NCBI GenBank assembly: GCA_900321035.1
Contig: ONUH01000006.1
Coordinates: 62,001-126,000, forward strand
Origin: an uncultured Selenomonadales bacterium
Lineage (GTDB): Bacteria > Bacillota > Negativicutes > Selenomonadales > Selenomonadaceae
Length of the DNA: 64,000 bases
Direction of reading: 5' to 3'
Part shown: positions 33,187-42,040 of the stretch, in pieces
Layout of the letters: every line of letters begins with the position of its first letter
How positions within the stretch are numbered: the stretch's first letter is position 1
The notes under the pieces: generated by a model
What the model was told of the DNA's origin: nothing
Database searches by the model: none
What the model saw: only the letters and a program-made list of their open reading frames with translations
Position numbers and translations under genes: made by a program

Positions 33187-33295
33187 GCCCTCCCCTCTGG
33201 GGCGTAACGTGCCAGTGGCACGTTACGGGGACCGCCGTCCGTTACCTTGCCCTCCCCTCTGGGGAGGGGGGACCGGCGAAGCCAGTGGGTGAGGT
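33187..33295. repeat. Palindromic repeat copies B1 and B2
   Basis: B1 (33187-33240) is a truncated minus-oriented copy carrying a 25-bp palindromic module at 33203-33227. B2 (33249-33295) is a full minus-oriented copy (CCCTCCCCTCTGGGGAGGGG, then GGCGAAGCC hairpin, GGGTGAGG). Forty bases later copy C starts in the opposite orientation. Confidence 0.85.
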
Positions 33296-33334
33296 CCTTG
33301 CAACGTTGCCTTTGTGTTAGTCGTTACGTTACAA

Positions 33335-33455
33335 CACCTCATCCGTCAGCCCTTCGGGCTGCCACCTCCCTCAGAGAGGGAGGCAGTGTAGCCCGAAACG
33401 AACTCAAGCCCTCCCCTTGAGGGGAGGGTCCCGCCGCAGGCGGGGGGTGAGGTGG
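33335..33455. repeat. Palindromic repeat copies C and D, tail to tail
   Basis: C (33335-33384, CACCTCATCCGTCAGCCC...) and D (33409-33455, ending GGGTGAGGTGG) are inverted to each other with a 24-bp gap. Confidence 0.85.
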
Positions 33456-33491
33456 CTTCGACGTTATGTTCACAATCATTGTTGCGGCAAA

Positions 33492-33536
33492 CACCTCATC
33501 CGGCGCTTCGCGCCACCTTCCCCTCCAGGGGAAGGC
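33492..33536. repeat. Palindromic repeat copy E
   Basis: CACCTCATCCGGCGCTTCGCGCC followed by the CCTTCCCCTCCAGGGGAAGG tail. Head to head with copy D across 36 bp. Confidence 0.85.
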
Positions 33537-33554
33537 TGATGGGAGCGCAGTCCT

Positions 33555-34936: not shown

Positions 34937-35046
34937 CCTCGCCCTATGAGGGAGGTGGCGCGAAGCGCCGGAGGGAGTATTGGCGCAAACCGAATTTAGC
35001 CTTCCCCTTGAGGGGAAGGGGGACCGCGTCAGCGGTGGATGAGGTG
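34936..35046. repeat. Palindromic repeat copies F (degenerate) and G
   Basis: F (34936-34978) is decayed. G (35000-35046) is complete: CCTTCCCCTTGAGGGGAAGG, hairpin ACCGCGTCAGCGGT, end GGATGAGGTG. The end of G, nine bases before the DUF559 ATG, provides that gene's ribosome site. Confidence 0.85.
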
Positions 35047-35054
35047 TTATATCC

Positions 35055-35414
35055 ATGAACCAAGAACACAATCCAAAACTAAAAACGAATGCGCAAAACT
35101 TACGCAAAAACATGACAAAAGAAGAACGTAAACTATGGTATGACGGTTTGAAGAAACTGCCGATCACCGTCAACCGTCAAAAAGTCTTTGGCAAATACAT
35201 TCTCGACTTTTATTGTGCAAGCGCGAAAATCGCAATCGAATTAGACGGTTCCCAACATTACGAAGAAAAAGGACAGGCTAAGGATGAGGAGCGCGACAGA
35301 TACTTGAATGAGCGTGGAATCACCGTCCTTAGGTATTCCAATCGCGATGTAAATCAGCGATTTAGAACTGTATGCGAGGATATTGAAAGCCACCTCATCC
35401 GTCAGCTTCGCTGA
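35055..35414 (+). CDS. DUF559 (Vsr-like PD-(D/E)XK) nuclease-like protein
   Basis: 119 residues. The family pattern is clear: NAQNLRKNMTKEERKLWY near 12, QKVFGKYILDFYCASAKIAI near 42 with the Asp of the fold, ELDGSQHYEEKGQAKDEERD near 62, and VLRYSNRDVNQ near 91. DUF559 is related to very-short-patch-repair nucleases; cellular roles are not settled. The start has GGATGAGG upstream, inside repeat copy G. The C-terminus HLIRQLR and the stop are encoded by repeat copy H (CACCTCATCCGTCAGCTTCGCTGA). The gene is AT-richer than its neighbours. The unit G-gene-H is bounded by inverted CACCTCATCC ends, which suggests one mobile or co-evolving unit. Confidence 0.85.
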   Translation: MNQEHNPKLKTNAQNLRKNMTKEERKLWYDGLKKLPITVNRQKVFGKYILDFYCASAKIAIELDGSQHYEEKGQAKDEERDRYLNERGITVLRYSNRDVNQRFRTVCEDIESHLIRQLR

Positions 35415-35527
35415 CACCCGTGACAGTCCACTGGACTGTCACGCCTCAAGTGGAAAGCAAGTAACGGACGAACCCAAGCCCTCCCCTTGAGGGGAGGGGG
35501 GACCGCCGCAGGCGGTGGGTGAGGTGG
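35391..35527. repeat. Palindromic repeat copies H and I, tail to tail
   Basis: H (35391-35457) starts CACCTCATCC and carries a 25-bp palindromic module at 35419-35443. I (35479-35527) is the opposite orientation, ending GGTGGGTGAGGTGG. Confidence 0.85.
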
Positions 35528-35570
35528 AAACAGCGTTGCGTTTACGTTTACGTTTATGGCTACGTCTTAA

Positions 35571-35685
35571 CACCTCATCCGGCGCTTCGCGCCACCTTCC
35601 CCTCAAGGGGAAGGCAAATGACGCACTCCCCCAAGCCTTCCCCTTGCGGGACGCAACGAACCCACCTTCCCCAGAGGGGAAGACT
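35571..35685. repeat. Palindromic repeat copy J and degenerate copy K
   Basis: J (35571-35615) is complete; K (about 35634-35685) keeps only tail hairpin pieces (CCTTCCCC, CCCAGAGGGGAAG). With H and I they fill the 325-bp gap before the second heptosyltransferase, where I see no gene. Confidence 0.75.
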
Positions 35686-35739
35686 AATATTCGACGTCAC
35701 GCCTCATAGCGAAGGCAAGTAACCACAGGAGGCAATAGA

Positions 35740-36990
35740 ATGGAAGAAAACAAAACGCCCGAGAAAAAGCCCTATATGACCTTCGACCCGCCGCAGACGC
35801 CGACGCAGGAAACGCCCGTGGAAGGGCTGCGGTTCGACTTCAATGCCGGCCTTCGGGTCTCGGTGCCGGAGGGCAGCTACCGGGTGCGGTTCATCGACCG
35901 GGACGCGGCGCTGACCGTTTACGACGCGAAAGCCTCGGGCGTGATCGCCTCCAGCACGAAGCGGTATTTCGTCAACTTCCGCCTCGAAGTCTATGAGACG
36001 CCGACGGAGGAAGAACAGCGGGCGCGCAAGGACAAGGACGAGCCGCTTCTGGAAGAGAAGCTGATCTTCTCCCACGACTACGACGCGAAGGGAAAGAACG
36101 TACTGATGAAATTCGCCGGCGCGGCCATGGGCGACCTCTTAGCGTGGGTCCCCTACGCCGAGGCCTTCCGCGAAAAGCACGGCTGCGAGCTTTACGCCTG
36201 GATGGACGCGCGGTATATCGAAATATTGCGGGCGGGCTATCCGAAGATCCACTTCCTGTCCCCCGACGACCCGCGGCCCGACAACCTCTACGCGACGTAC
36301 TACGTCGGTCTCTTCGCGCCGTGGGATGACCGCGATCTCCAGCCCACGGACTGGCGCGTGGTCGGGCTTCAGGCCCACGCGGCCTACCTCCTTGGCGTAG
36401 AGCCAAAAGAAACGCCGCCCCGGCTCCTGCCCTCCCCCGGCGCGAAAAAGATTCGCCCGAAGGAGCCTTACGTCTGCATCGCCACGCAGGCCACGGCCCA
36501 GTGCAAATACTGGAACAACGCCCAAGGCTGGATGGATACGGTCGCCTATCTGAAAGAGCTGGGCTATCGCGTGCTCTGCGTGGACCGGGAGCGCGTCACC
36601 GTCAACGGGATTTACGGCAACTCGATTCCCTACGGCACGGAAGACTTCACCGGCGACCGTTCCCTGCAGGAGCGCGTCGATCTGATTTCCGGCGCGGACT
36701 TCTTCATCGGCCTGTCCAGCGGCCTCTCATGGCTGGCGTGGGGCGCGGGCGTCCCCGTCGTGATGATCGTGGGCTTCCTGTCGCCGGGCACGGAATTCTC
36801 CACCCCCTACCGCGTCCAGCAGTTCCACACCTGCCACAGCTGCGGCAACGACCAGCGGAACGAGCATAAATACGAGGACTTCGGCGCCTGTCCCCGCCAC
36901 CGGGGCACCGAACAGGAATTCGAGTGTACCCGATGTATCGCGCCGGACTTCGTGAAGAAAACCATCGACCGCCTGCGGGAAGATAGATAG
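35740..36990 (+). CDS. Autotransporter strand-loop-strand O-heptosyltransferase (TibC/BAHT family), copy 2
   Basis: 416 residues, clear paralogue of the enzyme at 33683 with the same order: LRFDFNAGLRVSVPEGSYRV, MKFAGAAMGDLLAWVPYAEA, VCIATQATAQCKYWNNAQGW, FFIGLSSGLSWLAWGAGVP. The Cys set 365, 368, 384, 396 has exactly the same spacing as copy 1, with an extra Cys399. Two enzymes for one autotransporter could form mixed rings (the family is dodecameric), modify different loops, or use different heptose donors. ATG 35740 has AGGAGG eight bases upstream. Confidence 0.9.
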   Translation: MEENKTPEKKPYMTFDPPQTPTQETPVEGLRFDFNAGLRVSVPEGSYRVRFIDRDAALTVYDAKASGVIASSTKRYFVNFRLEVYETPTEEEQRARKDKDEPLLEEKLIFSHDYDAKGKNVLMKFAGAAMGDLLAWVPYAEAFREKHGCELYAWMDARYIEILRAGYPKIHFLSPDDPRPDNLYATYYVGLFAPWDDRDLQPTDWRVVGLQAHAAYLLGVEPKETPPRLLPSPGAKKIRPKEPYVCIATQATAQCKYWNNAQGWMDTVAYLKELGYRVLCVDRERVTVNGIYGNSIPYGTEDFTGDRSLQERVDLISGADFFIGLSSGLSWLAWGAGVPVVMIVGFLSPGTEFSTPYRVQQFHTCHSCGNDQRNEHKYEDFGACPRHRGTEQEFECTRCIAPDFVKKTIDRLREDR

Positions 36991-37060
36991 CCCTCCCCTT
37001 GAGGGCGTGACAGTCCAATGGACTGTCACGGGGGACCGCCGCAGGCGGTGGGTGAGGTGG
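36991..37060. repeat. Palindromic repeat copy L with 25-bp module
   Basis: Minus-oriented copy starting at the stop codon of the second heptosyltransferase; module at 37006-37030 interrupts the tail hairpin. Confidence 0.85.
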
Positions 37061-37097
37061 CAATAGCGTTGCGCTTATGTTTATCGCTACGTCTTAA

Positions 37098-37148
37098 CAC
37101 CTCATCCGTCGCGCTTCGCGCGCCACCTTCCCCTCAAAGGGGAAGGCA
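37098..37148. repeat. Palindromic repeat copy M
   Basis: CACCTCATCCGTCGCGC... head-to-head with copy L across 37 bp; it ends 68 bp before the autotransporter ATG. Confidence 0.85.
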
Positions 37149-37216
37149 AGATTTCGTGAAATTTAATGGCCGGAGTAATAAATCCACACCACGCGCAAAG
37201 AAAGGAAACCGATACT

Positions 37217-40200
37217 ATGAGCCGCTCGAAAAAATCACTGAAGCAAAAACTGGCGGTGGCGCTGTCCGTCGTCAACGCGCTGAACGTCTGCGCGCCCATC
37301 GCGCTGCCCTACGTCAACGTGGCGAGAGATATGTCCACTGGGGGGGGGCACGCCGAGCCGCTGTCCGATAGCCTTGCCCGTGCATTCTACGGCACGGCGC
37401 AGGCTGCAACGACGCAAACCATACCCGACGGAGATACGAAAAGCGCCGCCTGGTCCGGCGGAACGATGGGAGACAAGGCCGACAAGCAGATTATCAAAAG
37501 CGGCGGTACTGGCACGGTCGAGACCTTGAACGATGGCCAGCAGTGGATTTCCAGCGGCGGCATGGGCACGGTCGTGACCAATAATGGCGGCGAGCAGGCT
37601 GTCAACAACGGCGGCGAGGGGTATATCACGAACATGAAGAACTCCGGCACCCAGACCGTCTCGGGTGGCGGCACGGGCACGGTCACGACCATGTCCGGCG
37701 GCTACCAGTACCTCCGCGTCGGCGGCGGCGGCACGGTCGTGACCATGAACAACGGCGTGCAGTACGTCAACTACAAAAGCGGGAACGACCCCACGGGCAC
37801 GGGCACGGGCAGGGTCGAAACCATGAACGGCGGCAAGCAGCATGTCTGTGTTAGCGGCACGGGCACGGTTGAAATCATGAGCGGCGGCACGCAGCTTGTC
37901 TGGAAAGGCGGCACGGGCAAGGTCACGTCCATGTTCGACGGCGAGCAGATCGTCAACGACAGCAACGGCACGGGCACGGGCTCGGGCACGGTCTCGTCCA
38001 TGACCGGCGGCACGCAGGTCGTCAGAAGCGGCGGCTCGGGCACGGTCACGAACATGACCGGCGGCACGCAGATCGTCAGCAACGGCGGTGTGGGCACGGT
38101 CACGAACATGACCGGCGGCACGCTGGACGTCAGCGGCGGCGGCACGCAGGCCGTCAGCGGCACGCAGGTTGTCCTCAACGGCGGCGCGGGCACGGTCACG
38201 AACATGGTCGACGGCACGCAGATCGTCAGCAACGGCGGCGCGGGCACGGTCACGACCATGATGACCGGCGGCACGCAGACGATTGAAAACGGCGGCGTCG
38301 GCAGCGTCACAAGCCTTGGCGGCACGCAGACCGTCAAGAACGGCGGTACGTCAATAGTTACGACGGTCAAAAGCGGCGGCAAACAGATGGCCGAGGCGGG
38401 CGGCATCCTCGCGGGCACGCAGACCATCGAGGCGGGCGGCTCGGCAAGCGGCGGCACGCTGACGGGTACGCAGTCTGTCGCAGGCCGGGCAACAGGCATA
38501 ACCGTCGCCACCGGCGGCACGCAAATCGTCGAGAACGGCGGTACGGCCAGCGGAACCATGCTCGCCTCCGGCTACAAGTCCGGAAGTCCCGAGGTTTTAT
38601 ACAGCGGCGGCATACAGATCGTCAAGAGCGGCGGCGTGGCGGTAAGCACCACCATCAGCGGCACCTCGCAGGACGTCAGCGCCGGCATGGGCGGCACCCA
38701 GGTCGTTTCGGCGGGCGGCATCGTTAGAGCCTCCAAGGATGCCGGGGGCGTGCTGGAAATTCACAACGGCGCCATCTTCCAAAATACAGATGGTATGCCA
38801 ATCAGCTATGGGGACTACGCCCTCTCCGGCGGCACGCTGCGGGTGCAGGACGGCGCCTCGGTTGATTACAACATCTACGCCCTTTCCTCCGGCACCATCG
38901 AAGTGACCGCGGGCGGCTCGGCCTCCATCGACAGCGTAGGCCCGCAGGGCAAACAGGTTCTCTCCGGCGGCTCCGCCTCCGGCACCGTGGAGACCTTGGA
39001 CGGTTATCAAAAAATCTATTCCGGCGGCACAGGCTCGGCGACCGTCATGGGCGGCTATGCCGGCAACGCGCCCCATCAGGAAATTTACAACGGCGGCACC
39101 GGCACGATCGGGACCATGAACGCCGGCAAGCAGACCGTCAGCAGCGGCGGCGCGGGCATTGTCACGACCATGAGCGGCGGCATACAGAACATTCTAAGCA
39201 GCGGCACGGGCACGGTCACCGCCCTGATGAGCGGCGGCACGCAGATTGTCTATGGCGGCGGCACTTCTAAAGATACCTCCGTTCATGACGGCGGCGTAAT
39301 AGAAGAATCAGGCAGCGGCGGAACCGTCACCGGCGCCTCCTTCGCGTCGGGCGGAACCCACCGCATTGCGAACAGCGCAACGGTAACCGGCACAAACGTT
39401 TCCGGCCATATCCTTGAAGTCGTGAACGGCGGAACGGTCACAAGCGCCACTGTCCAAAGCGGCGGCACGGCGAATGTGGTGGGCGGCGGCATAGCATCGA
39501 ATACCACCGTCAGCAACGGCGGCACGCAGAATGTCAGCAACGGCGGCGATGCGCAATTCACCAGCATCTACAGCAGCGGCGTGCAGAATGTCAACAACGG
39601 CGGCTCGACGTACGCAACCTCCGTCAACGGCGGTGTGCAGAACGTCAACAGCGGCGGCTCGGCGACCATAACCGAAATCTACGAGGGCGGCGTGATGAAC
39701 GTCAACAGCGGCGGCTCGGCGAACACAGCCATCATCTACAACGGCGGCGTGGAGAACGTCAACGACGGCGGCACGCAGGAAGGAACCAGCATCGAAAGCG
39801 GCGGCGTGCAGAACGTGAACAGCGGCGGCGTGGCATTGGGCGGTTACATCTCCGGGGGCGGCGTGCGGAATGTCAAAAGCGGCGGTACGGCGAATGGCGC
39901 CCAAATCCTATCCGGCGGCAAACAGATGGCCGAGGCGGGCGGCATCTTAGCGGGCACGCATGGCATAGCCGGAGGCGGCGTGGCCTCGGGCGGCACGCTG
40001 ACAGGCGAGCAGTTTGTCCATAGCGGCGGCTCGGCGGCAGGCGTCACCGTCGCCTCCGGCGGCATACAGAAAGTCGAAAATGGCGGCGTTGCGTCGGGAG
40101 GGACCGTTAACAGCGGAGGCGTACAGACTATTTCGTCAGGCGGCATCGTGACGAACGCCATCTTGAACGGCGGCACGCAGACCGTTTCGGCGGGCGGCGT

Positions 40201-42040
40201 CGCCTCGGGCGGCACGCTGAATAGCGGCACGCAGACCGTCCAGAACGGCGGCAAAGCGGAAAACGTGACGGTCAACGGCGGCACGCAAAACATCGCTTCC
40301 GGCGGCACGGCGACGAGCGTGACGGTCAACGGCGGTGTGCAGACCGTCGCGCCGGGCGCTGTGGTCAGCGCTGCGACCATCAACGGCGGTACGCAGATTC
40401 TTTCGTCGGGCGCGTCCATCGACGGCGACCAGACGGTGGCGGCCGGCGGCGTGGCTTCCGGCGGCACGATTACCAGTACGCATACCCAGCACGTTTACGG
40501 CAAGGCCGCGGGCGCGACCATAAACAGCAGCGGCGTGCAGCACGTTTACGGCGGCGGCTATGCCACCGCGACGAAGATCGCAAACGGCGGCACGCTGATC
40601 GTGGAGGACAAGGGAACCGCGCAGGTTGCGCAGATAGACTCAACCAACGCCTGTGTGGAGCTTCGCGACCTCGGCGACGCGACGGTCATTTTCGGCGGCT
40701 CGGCGAACGAGACCTTTACCGTCCCGAATCTCTCGGCGACGGGGGACAACGTCCGGCTCCGGGCGGAGGGCGATTTCACGGTGCCTGTTGCCGCAGCGGA
40801 CGGGCACAAGGAGCTCACCGTCACGAAAATGTCAGGCCATGCGGATTTCTATGTCAATACCGACGTGGCGAACAACGCCGCCGATATTGTTCACATTACG
40901 AGTGTGACAGGCGCATCGTCGGCGAACAAGATCCGCATCAATTACGACCCGACGCTGGCGGCGGGCAACGCCGTGGCGTCCACGCATACGATGGTCGCCG
41001 AAAGCGTGGACGGCAAGGCGACGTTCGAGGGGGCGAAGAGCACCGTCGGCGGCCTTTCCTATCTGCCTACGGTGACGGCGAAGGGCAATAACTGGTATAT
41101 CACGAAGGTGGACAGCCTCGGCGCCAGCGAAGCCAGCCACCATACGCTGATGGCCATGACGGCGGCCACGGCTGCTCTTGCCGCGGGCACCGCTTTCATC
41201 GACGACGCGGCGCGGGGACTTTCCCTTGCCTCGAACGTCGGCGCGGACGGCGTGTCGTCCTTCGCGAAGATGGGCGGCGGCAGCGTCCGGCAGGAAACGG
41301 GCAGCCATGTGGACGTCCACACCTGGAACGCGATCCTCGCCCTCGGACACGCGAACAAAAAAGAACGCGGCACGTTCGAGTACGGCGCGTTCTTCGAGTA
41401 CGGCAGCGGGAACTATACGACCGAGTGCGAAGACACCCGGCGCGGCGACGGCAGCCTGCACTACACCGGCGGCGGCGTTCTCGCGAAATGGACGGACGCC
41501 CACGGGCTGTATGTGGAAGGGAGCTTCCGGGCGGGCACGGTGCACGACGACGCGCGGGACGTGCTGCACGACGACATGAACACCTACAGTTATGAGACCG
41601 ACGCGGGCTATCTCGGCGCGCATTTAGGCGTGGGCAGGGAAATCGCGCTGGCGGACGGGAACAGCGTGGACGTTTACGGCAAGTATTTCATGAGCCGCAG
41701 GAACGGCGTCTCCTTCCGCACGGGCGGCAACGCCTACGACCTCGACGCGGTGACGAGCCAGGTGCTGCGCGTCGGCGCGAGGTACATGATGAAGCGGGAG
41801 AAGTGGAATTTCTACGGCGGCGTAGCCTATGAGCACGAGTTCGACGGGAAGGCAAACGGTACGGTGGACGGCCACGCGATTCGGGGCGCGGACATCGGCG
41901 GCGGCAGCTTCCGGGCGGAGCTCGGCGCGACGATGACGCCGGGAGAGAATTCCCCGTGGAAGCTGGATTTGAATTTGGCAGGGTTTGCAGGGAAGAAACA
42001 AGGCGTCACCGGCGGGATATCCGTGGCGTGGATGTTCTGA
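37217..42040 (+). CDS. AIDA-type autotransporter adhesin with strand-loop-strand passenger
   Basis: 1607 residues. An unusually long leader (about 70 residues, basic start MSRSKKSLKQKLAVALS, end near YGTAQAATTQ) leads to a passenger of roughly residues 75-1150 built from about 19-residue repeats (GGTQ.V..GG., GSGTVTxM), each a strand-loop-strand turn of a β-helix. The short Ser/Thr/Asn-rich loops are the sites glycosylated in AIDA-I and TibA. A linker follows, then the C-terminal autotransporter β-barrel of about 270 residues (from near 41230) ending in VAWMF, the usual terminal Phe of the BAM signal. It is exported by Sec, inserted in the outer membrane, and displays the passenger outside. 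A run of nine G at 37340-37348 is in frame as three Gly codons. AAAGGA precedes ATG 37217. Confidence 0.93.
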   Translation: MSRSKKSLKQKLAVALSVVNALNVCAPIALPYVNVARDMSTGGGHAEPLSDSLARAFYGTAQAATTQTIPDGDTKSAAWSGGTMGDKADKQIIKSGGTGTVETLNDGQQWISSGGMGTVVTNNGGEQAVNNGGEGYITNMKNSGTQTVSGGGTGTVTTMSGGYQYLRVGGGGTVVTMNNGVQYVNYKSGNDPTGTGTGRVETMNGGKQHVCVSGTGTVEIMSGGTQLVWKGGTGKVTSMFDGEQIVNDSNGTGTGSGTVSSMTGGTQVVRSGGSGTVTNMTGGTQIVSNGGVGTVTNMTGGTLDVSGGGTQAVSGTQVVLNGGAGTVTNMVDGTQIVSNGGAGTVTTMMTGGTQTIENGGVGSVTSLGGTQTVKNGGTSIVTTVKSGGKQMAEAGGILAGTQTIEAGGSASGGTLTGTQSVAGRATGITVATGGTQIVENGGTASGTMLASGYKSGSPEVLYSGGIQIVKSGGVAVSTTISGTSQDVSAGMGGTQVVSAGGIVRASKDAGGVLEIHNGAIFQNTDGMPISYGDYALSGGTLRVQDGASVDYNIYALSSGTIEVTAGGSASIDSVGPQGKQVLSGGSASGTVETLDGYQKIYSGGTGSATVMGGYAGNAPHQEIYNGGTGTIGTMNAGKQTVSSGGAGIVTTMSGGIQNILSSGTGTVTALMSGGTQIVYGGGTSKDTSVHDGGVIEESGSGGTVTGASFASGGTHRIANSATVTGTNVSGHILEVVNGGTVTSATVQSGGTANVVGGGIASNTTVSNGGTQNVSNGGDAQFTSIYSSGVQNVNNGGSTYATSVNGGVQNVNSGGSATITEIYEGGVMNVNSGGSANTAIIYNGGVENVNDGGTQEGTSIESGGVQNVNSGGVALGGYISGGGVRNVKSGGTANGAQILSGGKQMAEAGGILAGTHGIAGGGVASGGTLTGEQFVHSGGSAAGVTVASGGIQKVENGGVASGGTVNSGGVQTISSGGIVTNAILNGGTQTVSAGGVASGGTLNSGTQTVQNGGKAENVTVNGGTQNIASGGTATSVTVNGGVQTVAPGAVVSAATINGGTQILSSGASIDGDQTVAAGGVASGGTITSTHTQHVYGKAAGATINSSGVQHVYGGGYATATKIANGGTLIVEDKGTAQVAQIDSTNACVELRDLGDATVIFGGSANETFTVPNLSATGDNVRLRAEGDFTVPVAAADGHKELTVTKMSGHADFYVNTDVANNAADIVHITSVTGASSANKIRINYDPTLAAGNAVASTHTMVAESVDGKATFEGAKSTVGGLSYLPTVTAKGNNWYITKVDSLGASEASHHTLMAMTAATAALAAGTAFIDDAARGLSLASNVGADGVSSFAKMGGGSVRQETGSHVDVHTWNAILALGHANKKERGTFEYGAFFEYGSGNYTTECEDTRRGDGSLHYTGGGVLAKWTDAHGLYVEGSFRAGTVHDDARDVLHDDMNTYSYETDAGYLGAHLGVGREIALADGNSVDVYGKYFMSRRNGVSFRTGGNAYDLDAVTSQVLRVGARYMMKREKWNFYGGVAYEHEFDGKANGTVDGHAIRGADIGGGSFRAELGATMTPGENSPWKLDLNLAGFAGKKQGVTGGISVAWMF
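37340..37348 (+). repeat. G9 homopolymer within the autotransporter coding start
   Basis: Nine consecutive G, codons 42-44, in the leader region. The gene otherwise prefers GGC for Gly, so three GGG in a row are atypical. Confidence 0.95.

Follow-up and report, generated by a model that had tools for sequence, protein, structure and literature searches.

The closest described counterparts of the locus reported here are the REPtrons, in which REP/REPIN repeats are found together with RAYT (TnpA-REP) transposases (PMC2817692, PMC3116915, PMC3733652) and whose hallmarks are REP-like palindromes, inverted dimers and an open reading frame (ORF) situated between inverted repeats (PMC2817692). REPs with a CGTC tag are said to lack a dedicated transposase, and which enzyme moves RAYT-less REPs is held open in the literature (PMC3733652). 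The present locus lies in a window of 64,000 nt, the whole stretch of DNA that was analyzed, from an uncultured Selenomonadales bacterium (draft genome G000). An initial annotation of this DNA had placed a DUF559 gene within an inverted pair of palindromic repeats and had proposed that a Vsr-like PD-(D/E)XK protein plays the part of the RAYT transposase. DUF559 (PF04480) is a protein family without an assigned function, and Vsr, the very short patch repair endonuclease, acts in mismatch repair and is associated with a cytosine methylase. In the open-licence literature, no published account linking DUF559 with REP-like repeats was found.

Both repeat copies were located (Table 1), and their tags, GGATGAGGTG upstream and CACCTCATCC downstream, are exact reverse complements which point inward to the gene and leave the hairpins outside. 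The upstream tag faces the gene and occupies its ribosome-binding position, ending 8 nt before the ATG at 35055, as had been annotated. The downstream tag (35391-35400) is located within the DUF559 ORF, and the last seven codons and the TGA, read from 35391 onward, are encoded by this copy, again as annotated (...His-Leu-Ile-Arg-Gln-Leu-Arg-stop). Hairpin A reads ACCGC-GTCA-GCGGT in the upstream copy and GTCAGC-TTC-GCTGAC (35401-35415) in the downstream copy, where it contains the stop codon. Gene and repeats had been described as sharing 10-bp inverted termini; the tags do match in this way, but the repeat is longer than such a terminus and comprises tag, hairpin A and hairpin B. Hairpin B of the downstream copy is interrupted by a 25-nt palindrome (35419-35443). 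This palindrome, CGTGACAGTCC-A(C/T)T-GGACTGTCACG, was also observed at 37006-37030, in both cases within hairpin B of a repeat copy, and is apparently a second small repeat inserted into the first. The element is flanked by two neighboring paralogous TibC/Aah-type autotransporter heptosyltransferase genes (TIGR04414; 33683-34936 and 35740-36990), and a gene for a 1624-aa AIDA-like autotransporter (37166-42040) is found downstream of both.

Table 1. Features of the DUF559 element and of the facing repeat pairs in the window.
Feature	Position	Strand	Remarks
DUF559 (PF04480) Vsr-like PD-(D/E)XK nuclease gene, 119 aa	35055..35414	+	profile match and predicted fold
Upstream repeat copy	34998..35046	-	hairpin B 35000-35019, hairpin A 35023-35036, tag 35037-35046
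Downstream repeat copy	35391..35443	+	tag, hairpin A, then 25-nt palindrome in hairpin-B position
Island: DUF559 element and repeat pair, ~0.8 kb	34937..35727	.	between two TibC-like genes
Gene-less facing repeat pair	33249..33384	.	tags ~40 nt apart, element layout minus gene
Facing repeat pair	33407..33537	.	tags 33445-33454 minus, 33492-33501 plus
Facing repeat pair	35477..35616	.	tags 35517-35526 minus, 35571-35580 plus, 46 nt apart
Facing repeat pair	36989..37149	.	tags 37050-37059 minus, 37098-37107 plus, 40 nt apart

In G000, the repeat unit is built of a 10-nt tag, a hairpin A of variable sequence and a hairpin B, in this order, and both hairpins are present in 44 of the 50 copies examined. 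Fifteen different hairpin A arms were identified among these copies and, because each has its complementary partner, the palindrome is kept while the sequence changes. With up to one mismatch, CACCTCATCC matches 16 times in the window compared with 3.7 expected, and none of 100 shuffles scored as high. Pattern searches, which cover some tag types only, returned 26 occurrences of CACCTCATCCG in the 2.40 Mb draft genome (reversed control, 0) and 83 of ACCTCAYCCR in the assembly (reversed control, 7). Genomes of the genus contain dozens of relatives of the last facing pair in Table 1, and no Rfam match was obtained for 32-43 kb of the window.

The whole assembly contains 19 pairs of facing tags less than 1 kb apart, of which 14 have spacers of 38-46 nt and three of 18-21 nt. 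The two remaining spacers are long (346 and 385 nt), and it is these two pairs that enclose the DUF559 genes, of which the assembly yielded no others; no gene other than DUF559 was found inside any of the 19 pairs. The annotated position of the gene, where other facing pairs have a short spacer, thus holds across the assembly (18-46 nt in 17 of 19 pairs). Of the two G000 paralogs, the one in the window has the ending CACCTC and the other (L002) the ending AACCTC. In a sample picked by similarity, facing tags combine C with C in ten pairs and A/G with A/G in six, with no mixed pair (chance 3.5e-5).

The 119-aa product scores 102 bits against the PF04480 profile; only DUF559 and related nuclease models match the window enzyme, and PF01797, the HUH Y1 transposase, does not. 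The AlphaFold2 model (mean pLDDT 88.8) has a predicted Vsr-like fold, which agrees with the annotated enzyme type, and its structural matches include N. gonorrhoeae 3hrl (Z 15.2), I-Bth0305I (3r3p; Z 12.7, rmsd 2.6 over 96 residues) and Vsr (1cw0; Z 11.3). TnsA of Tn7 was matched with a Z of 7.4, a likeness that reflects only a common arrangement. Residues E24, D51, E62, D64, H68, and D77 do not vary across 45 proteins and, taken together with the predicted fold, suggest that the DUF559 protein is probably constrained and active as a hydrolytic nuclease. Beyond its fold, I-Bth0305I, one of the EDxHD/Vsr-like homing endonucleases, is comparable as a small free-standing nuclease with apparent selfish behavior. 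However, neither an intron nor an intein is present here, and the gene is situated in a repeated palindromic dimer instead of a single conserved gene site. Vsr resembles the protein in fold, whereas the DUF559 gene described here is linked to repeats. A PADLOC search yielded only weak partial matches (DpdF, 28.7 bits, residues 50-102) and no near-full-length match to a defence model. The predicted transcript fold (z -6.1) shows the 5' and 3' tags paired with each other; in the mRNA, this pairing would mask the ribosome-binding site and might keep the nuclease scarce.

The association of gene and repeats was followed in two sets, 20 short DUF559 genes from relatives within Negativicutes and 80 named loci that belong almost entirely to Clostridia. 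The closest named relative (L031, 77% identity) comes from an uncultured Selenomonadaceae genome, and G000 itself apparently belongs to this family. Flanks were called inverted repeats when their local inverted-repeat score reached 18. By this measure, 63 of 98 DUF559 loci (64%) carry inverted flanks compared with 10 of 533 other genes on the same contigs (1.9%), and when flank pairs were swapped between loci, 22% reached the same score. The proposed link therefore withstood this comparison; about one third of the DUF559 loci are without a detectable inverted pair. The tags vary by enzyme lineage, the two ends usually matching (CACCTCATCC, CACCTTATCC, TACCTCATCC, AATCCCTCAGTC, CCCTCTCAGTC, CCCCCACCACC, and others), and different tags were found on paralogs of one genome (G004, G007, and several of six in G269). 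Within 10-kb loci, counts were too small for a tag-specific effect in trans, and T4 loci were also T1-rich. On the protein tree, which is poorly resolved, repeat association is scattered; when examined for a single origin, it changes 30 times compared with 34 in shuffled data.

Among 17 DUF559 genes from plasmid or phage records, eight have inverted flanks (Sphingobium, two from Sphingomonas, Novosphingobium, Sinorhizobium meliloti, Azospirillum lipoferum, Qipengyuania, and Deinococcus), and the order hairpin B, hairpin A, tag recurs in several of them. No such repeats were found at the E. coli and N. gonorrhoeae genes of this set. At an NGO0050-like gene of N. gonorrhoeae (L329), the flanks are direct, not inverted, copies of a ~60-nt repeat. 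Some DUF559 genes are located within gene clusters, namely among hpa genes in Deinococcus (L326), carboxylase genes in Sphingobium (L325) and transhydrogenase subunits in Sphingomonas (L335), as expected for insertions. An Anaerolineaceae (Chloroflexota) genome bin (L062) carries the same element and repeats as Clostridia, which represents either horizontal transfer or a binning error. The repeats resemble the CGTC-tagged REPs in their hairpin, with a CGTC-like foot and a CCA-like tail in part of the copies. DUF559 as the missing enzyme of CGTC-tagged REPs is not supported, as no CGTCATTCCCG-type repeats were seen around the 17 plasmid and phage genes.

Repeat number was compared with the presence of DUF559 in 247 genomes of one Clostridia order (at least 90% complete), using a two-class repeat pattern, which misses other tag types, net of a reversed control. 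At least 20 net copies were found in 14 of 60 genomes with DUF559 and in 1 of 187 without (p 9e-9, a statistic that ignores kinship), and at least eight net copies in 11 of the 187 genomes without the gene. In 41 Negativicutes, the association has a p of 5e-5, and of 0.009 outside the window's own genus, kinship again being ignored. Repeats are thus much rarer in genomes without DUF559, and the idea is not refuted by this check. Where repeats occur without the gene, as in G008 (56 copies), G010 (31), G002 (13) and the 11 of 187 genomes, loss of the gene or another source of repeats can be responsible.

The same genomes bear on the explanation that these are ordinary REPs moved by a RAYT, a Y1 tyrosine transposase encoded elsewhere in the genome, with the position of DUF559 being incidental. 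In its favor, the REP-like palindromes, the inverted dimers and the ORF enclosed by inverted repeats all count as hallmarks of RAYT (PMC2817692), and Y1_Tnp genes are present in some of the genomes. However, no Y1_Tnp match (PF01797) was obtained in 12 of 28 genomes searched, including G007 (113 copies), G195 (110), G008, G010, G052, and G299; G000 holds only a broken copy, and the tag is not GTAG. This makes a RAYT acting from elsewhere very improbable. In G008 and G010, two repeat-rich genomes from the genus to which the window belongs, no DUF559 gene and no Y1 transposase was detected.

Evidence for movement comes from six to seven elements of ~90% identity which share a starting point 57 nt ahead of the match, where the upstream repeat has its outer edge, and have unrelated genes outside. 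Of three element copies in G061, one (L287) has a disrupted reading frame; between intact copies dN/dS is 0.02-0.08, and the intact gene copies are under strong purifying selection. At the site of the window, the TibC-like genes overlap in G002 with no island between them and are 34 nt apart with a lone hairpin in G006, compared with ~0.8 kb in the window. A gene-less site of the window revealed only a possible CCACAGGA duplication, and no clear target duplication was found for the repeat unit itself. Hairpin B was considered as a target-site duplication and rejected, since the loop of one copy is the reverse complement of the loop of the other (e.g. GTGTA and TACAC), which makes them inverted, not direct. 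When L289 was compared in search of an exact empty site of the bare repeat unit, the intergenic region proved hypervariable in every relative.

These observations also bear on the main rival of the reading that we favor below, namely that DUF559 is a homing endonuclease situated in the spacer. The repeat pairs would then spread by other means, and the nuclease would cut gene-less pairs, recognizing the pair or the spacer, and enter by gene conversion over the flanking repeats, thereby interrupting its own target. The predicted fold is that of the homing endonuclease I-Bth0305I, the gene is located exactly at the spacer position of gene-less pairs, and repeats also occur without it. By inspection, the spacers of gene-less dimers hold no obvious ORF remnant, so that dimers need not be deletion products. 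However, homing leaves the spread of the dimers unexplained even though repeat number follows DUF559, Y1 transposases were undetected in several repeat-rich genomes, and element copies start at the outer repeat edge at unrelated sites instead of being exchanged at the spacer alone. On balance, homing is regarded as unlikely, at about one chance in four.

A 1.25-kb insert carrying the DUF559 element in G061 is absent from G330 and G251, which show an intact terminator hairpin. The insert is a larger terminal inverted repeat (TIR) element that holds further cargo, so the comparison documents presence and absence and not where exactly the repeat unit ends. Such larger elements were observed in Oscillospiraceae (L092, 4278-5523; also L087, L077/L093, and L098), where they end in CAGGGTGTCACTCTAAAGGACAG with an apparent TA duplication and carry variable small cargo genes beside the DUF559 element; in G061, the element had entered the loop of an intrinsic terminator. 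In the Oscillospiraceae genus of G061, gene-less pairs combine both end types of the gene-bearing element, left and right, around a ~20-nt spacer. As the DUF559 element is often found inside the larger transposon in this Oscillospiraceae genus, part of its mobility may belong to that transposon. The repeats might even be moved entirely by some other machinery, for example this transposon, DUF559 being a host or defence nuclease caught between them that uses them for ribosome binding, termination and autoregulation. Such a passenger role could draw on the tag at the ribosome-binding position, on the two tags that can pair in the mRNA and on the elements inside the larger TIR element. A passenger role would not lead one to expect that the association recurs in independent lineages whose tags differ, that paralogs of one genome pair with separate tags, or that facing pairs enclose no other genes, and the PADLOC matches are weak and partial; we therefore consider it improbable.

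Across hundreds of related genomes, the evidence suggests that gene and repeats form one mobile-DNA partnership. It is somewhat more probable than otherwise that this partnership is a REPtron-like selfish mobile pair with a Vsr-like nuclease in place of RAYT, and by analogy the nuclease may be what spreads the repeats. As in REPtrons, palindromic intergenic repeats with a short unpaired tag form facing dimers with a fixed spacer, the enzyme ORF lies between two inverted copies, several enzyme-repeat lineages coexist in one genome, and enzyme and repeat number are correlated (here in the 247 and 41 genomes, with kinship ignored). Unlike in REPtrons, the enzyme is, by its predicted fold, a Vsr-like PD-(D/E)XK hydrolase and not an HUH Y1 transposase, the repeats have two hairpins each, and the tag, which lies at the ribosome-binding position, is ~10 nt long (CACCTCATCC and relatives) instead of GTAG. 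Because enzyme fold and tag both differ, the system would work like, and yet not be, a REP/RAYT system. Pairs of insertion sequences (IS) and MITEs offer a further parallel, as an autonomous unit and gene-less units share their ends; in contrast to these, there is no DDE transposase here and no clear target duplication of the repeat unit.

For the REPtron-like pair, we infer the following course. The full unit would consist of repeat, DUF559 gene and inverted repeat, and the gene-less units, two facing repeats with a fixed spacer of 18-46 nt, would be non-autonomous and relate to it as REPINs do to RAYT transposases. The nuclease would recognize the ends, tag and hairpin, of repeats belonging to its own lineage, most likely in a folded or single-stranded form of the DNA, and cut there; host repair or replication would then copy the unit, with or without the gene, into the cut place. 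Since we know of no strand-transfer step for a PD-(D/E)XK hydrolase, joining would have to come from host enzymes. In its broadest form, which we put forward tentatively and rate at slightly below an even chance, DUF559 elements would constitute a new class of autonomous mobile DNA in which a single small hydrolytic PD-(D/E)XK nuclease, without transposase or recombinase, mobilizes the paired palindromic repeats of its own lineage. This class would be a second, non-homologous counterpart to RAYT, present in Bacillota and probably in Alphaproteobacteria and Deinococcota.

The proposed partnership assigns much of DUF559 a concrete role that can be tested, and it provides a candidate enzyme for part of the REP-like repeats that abound in gut Clostridia and Negativicutes, including several genomes without a detectable Y1 transposase. 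It would also offer compact nuclease-repeat pairs in which paralogs of a single cell differ in specificity. If true, REP-type selfish repeats would have been enlisted by at least two unrelated enzymes.
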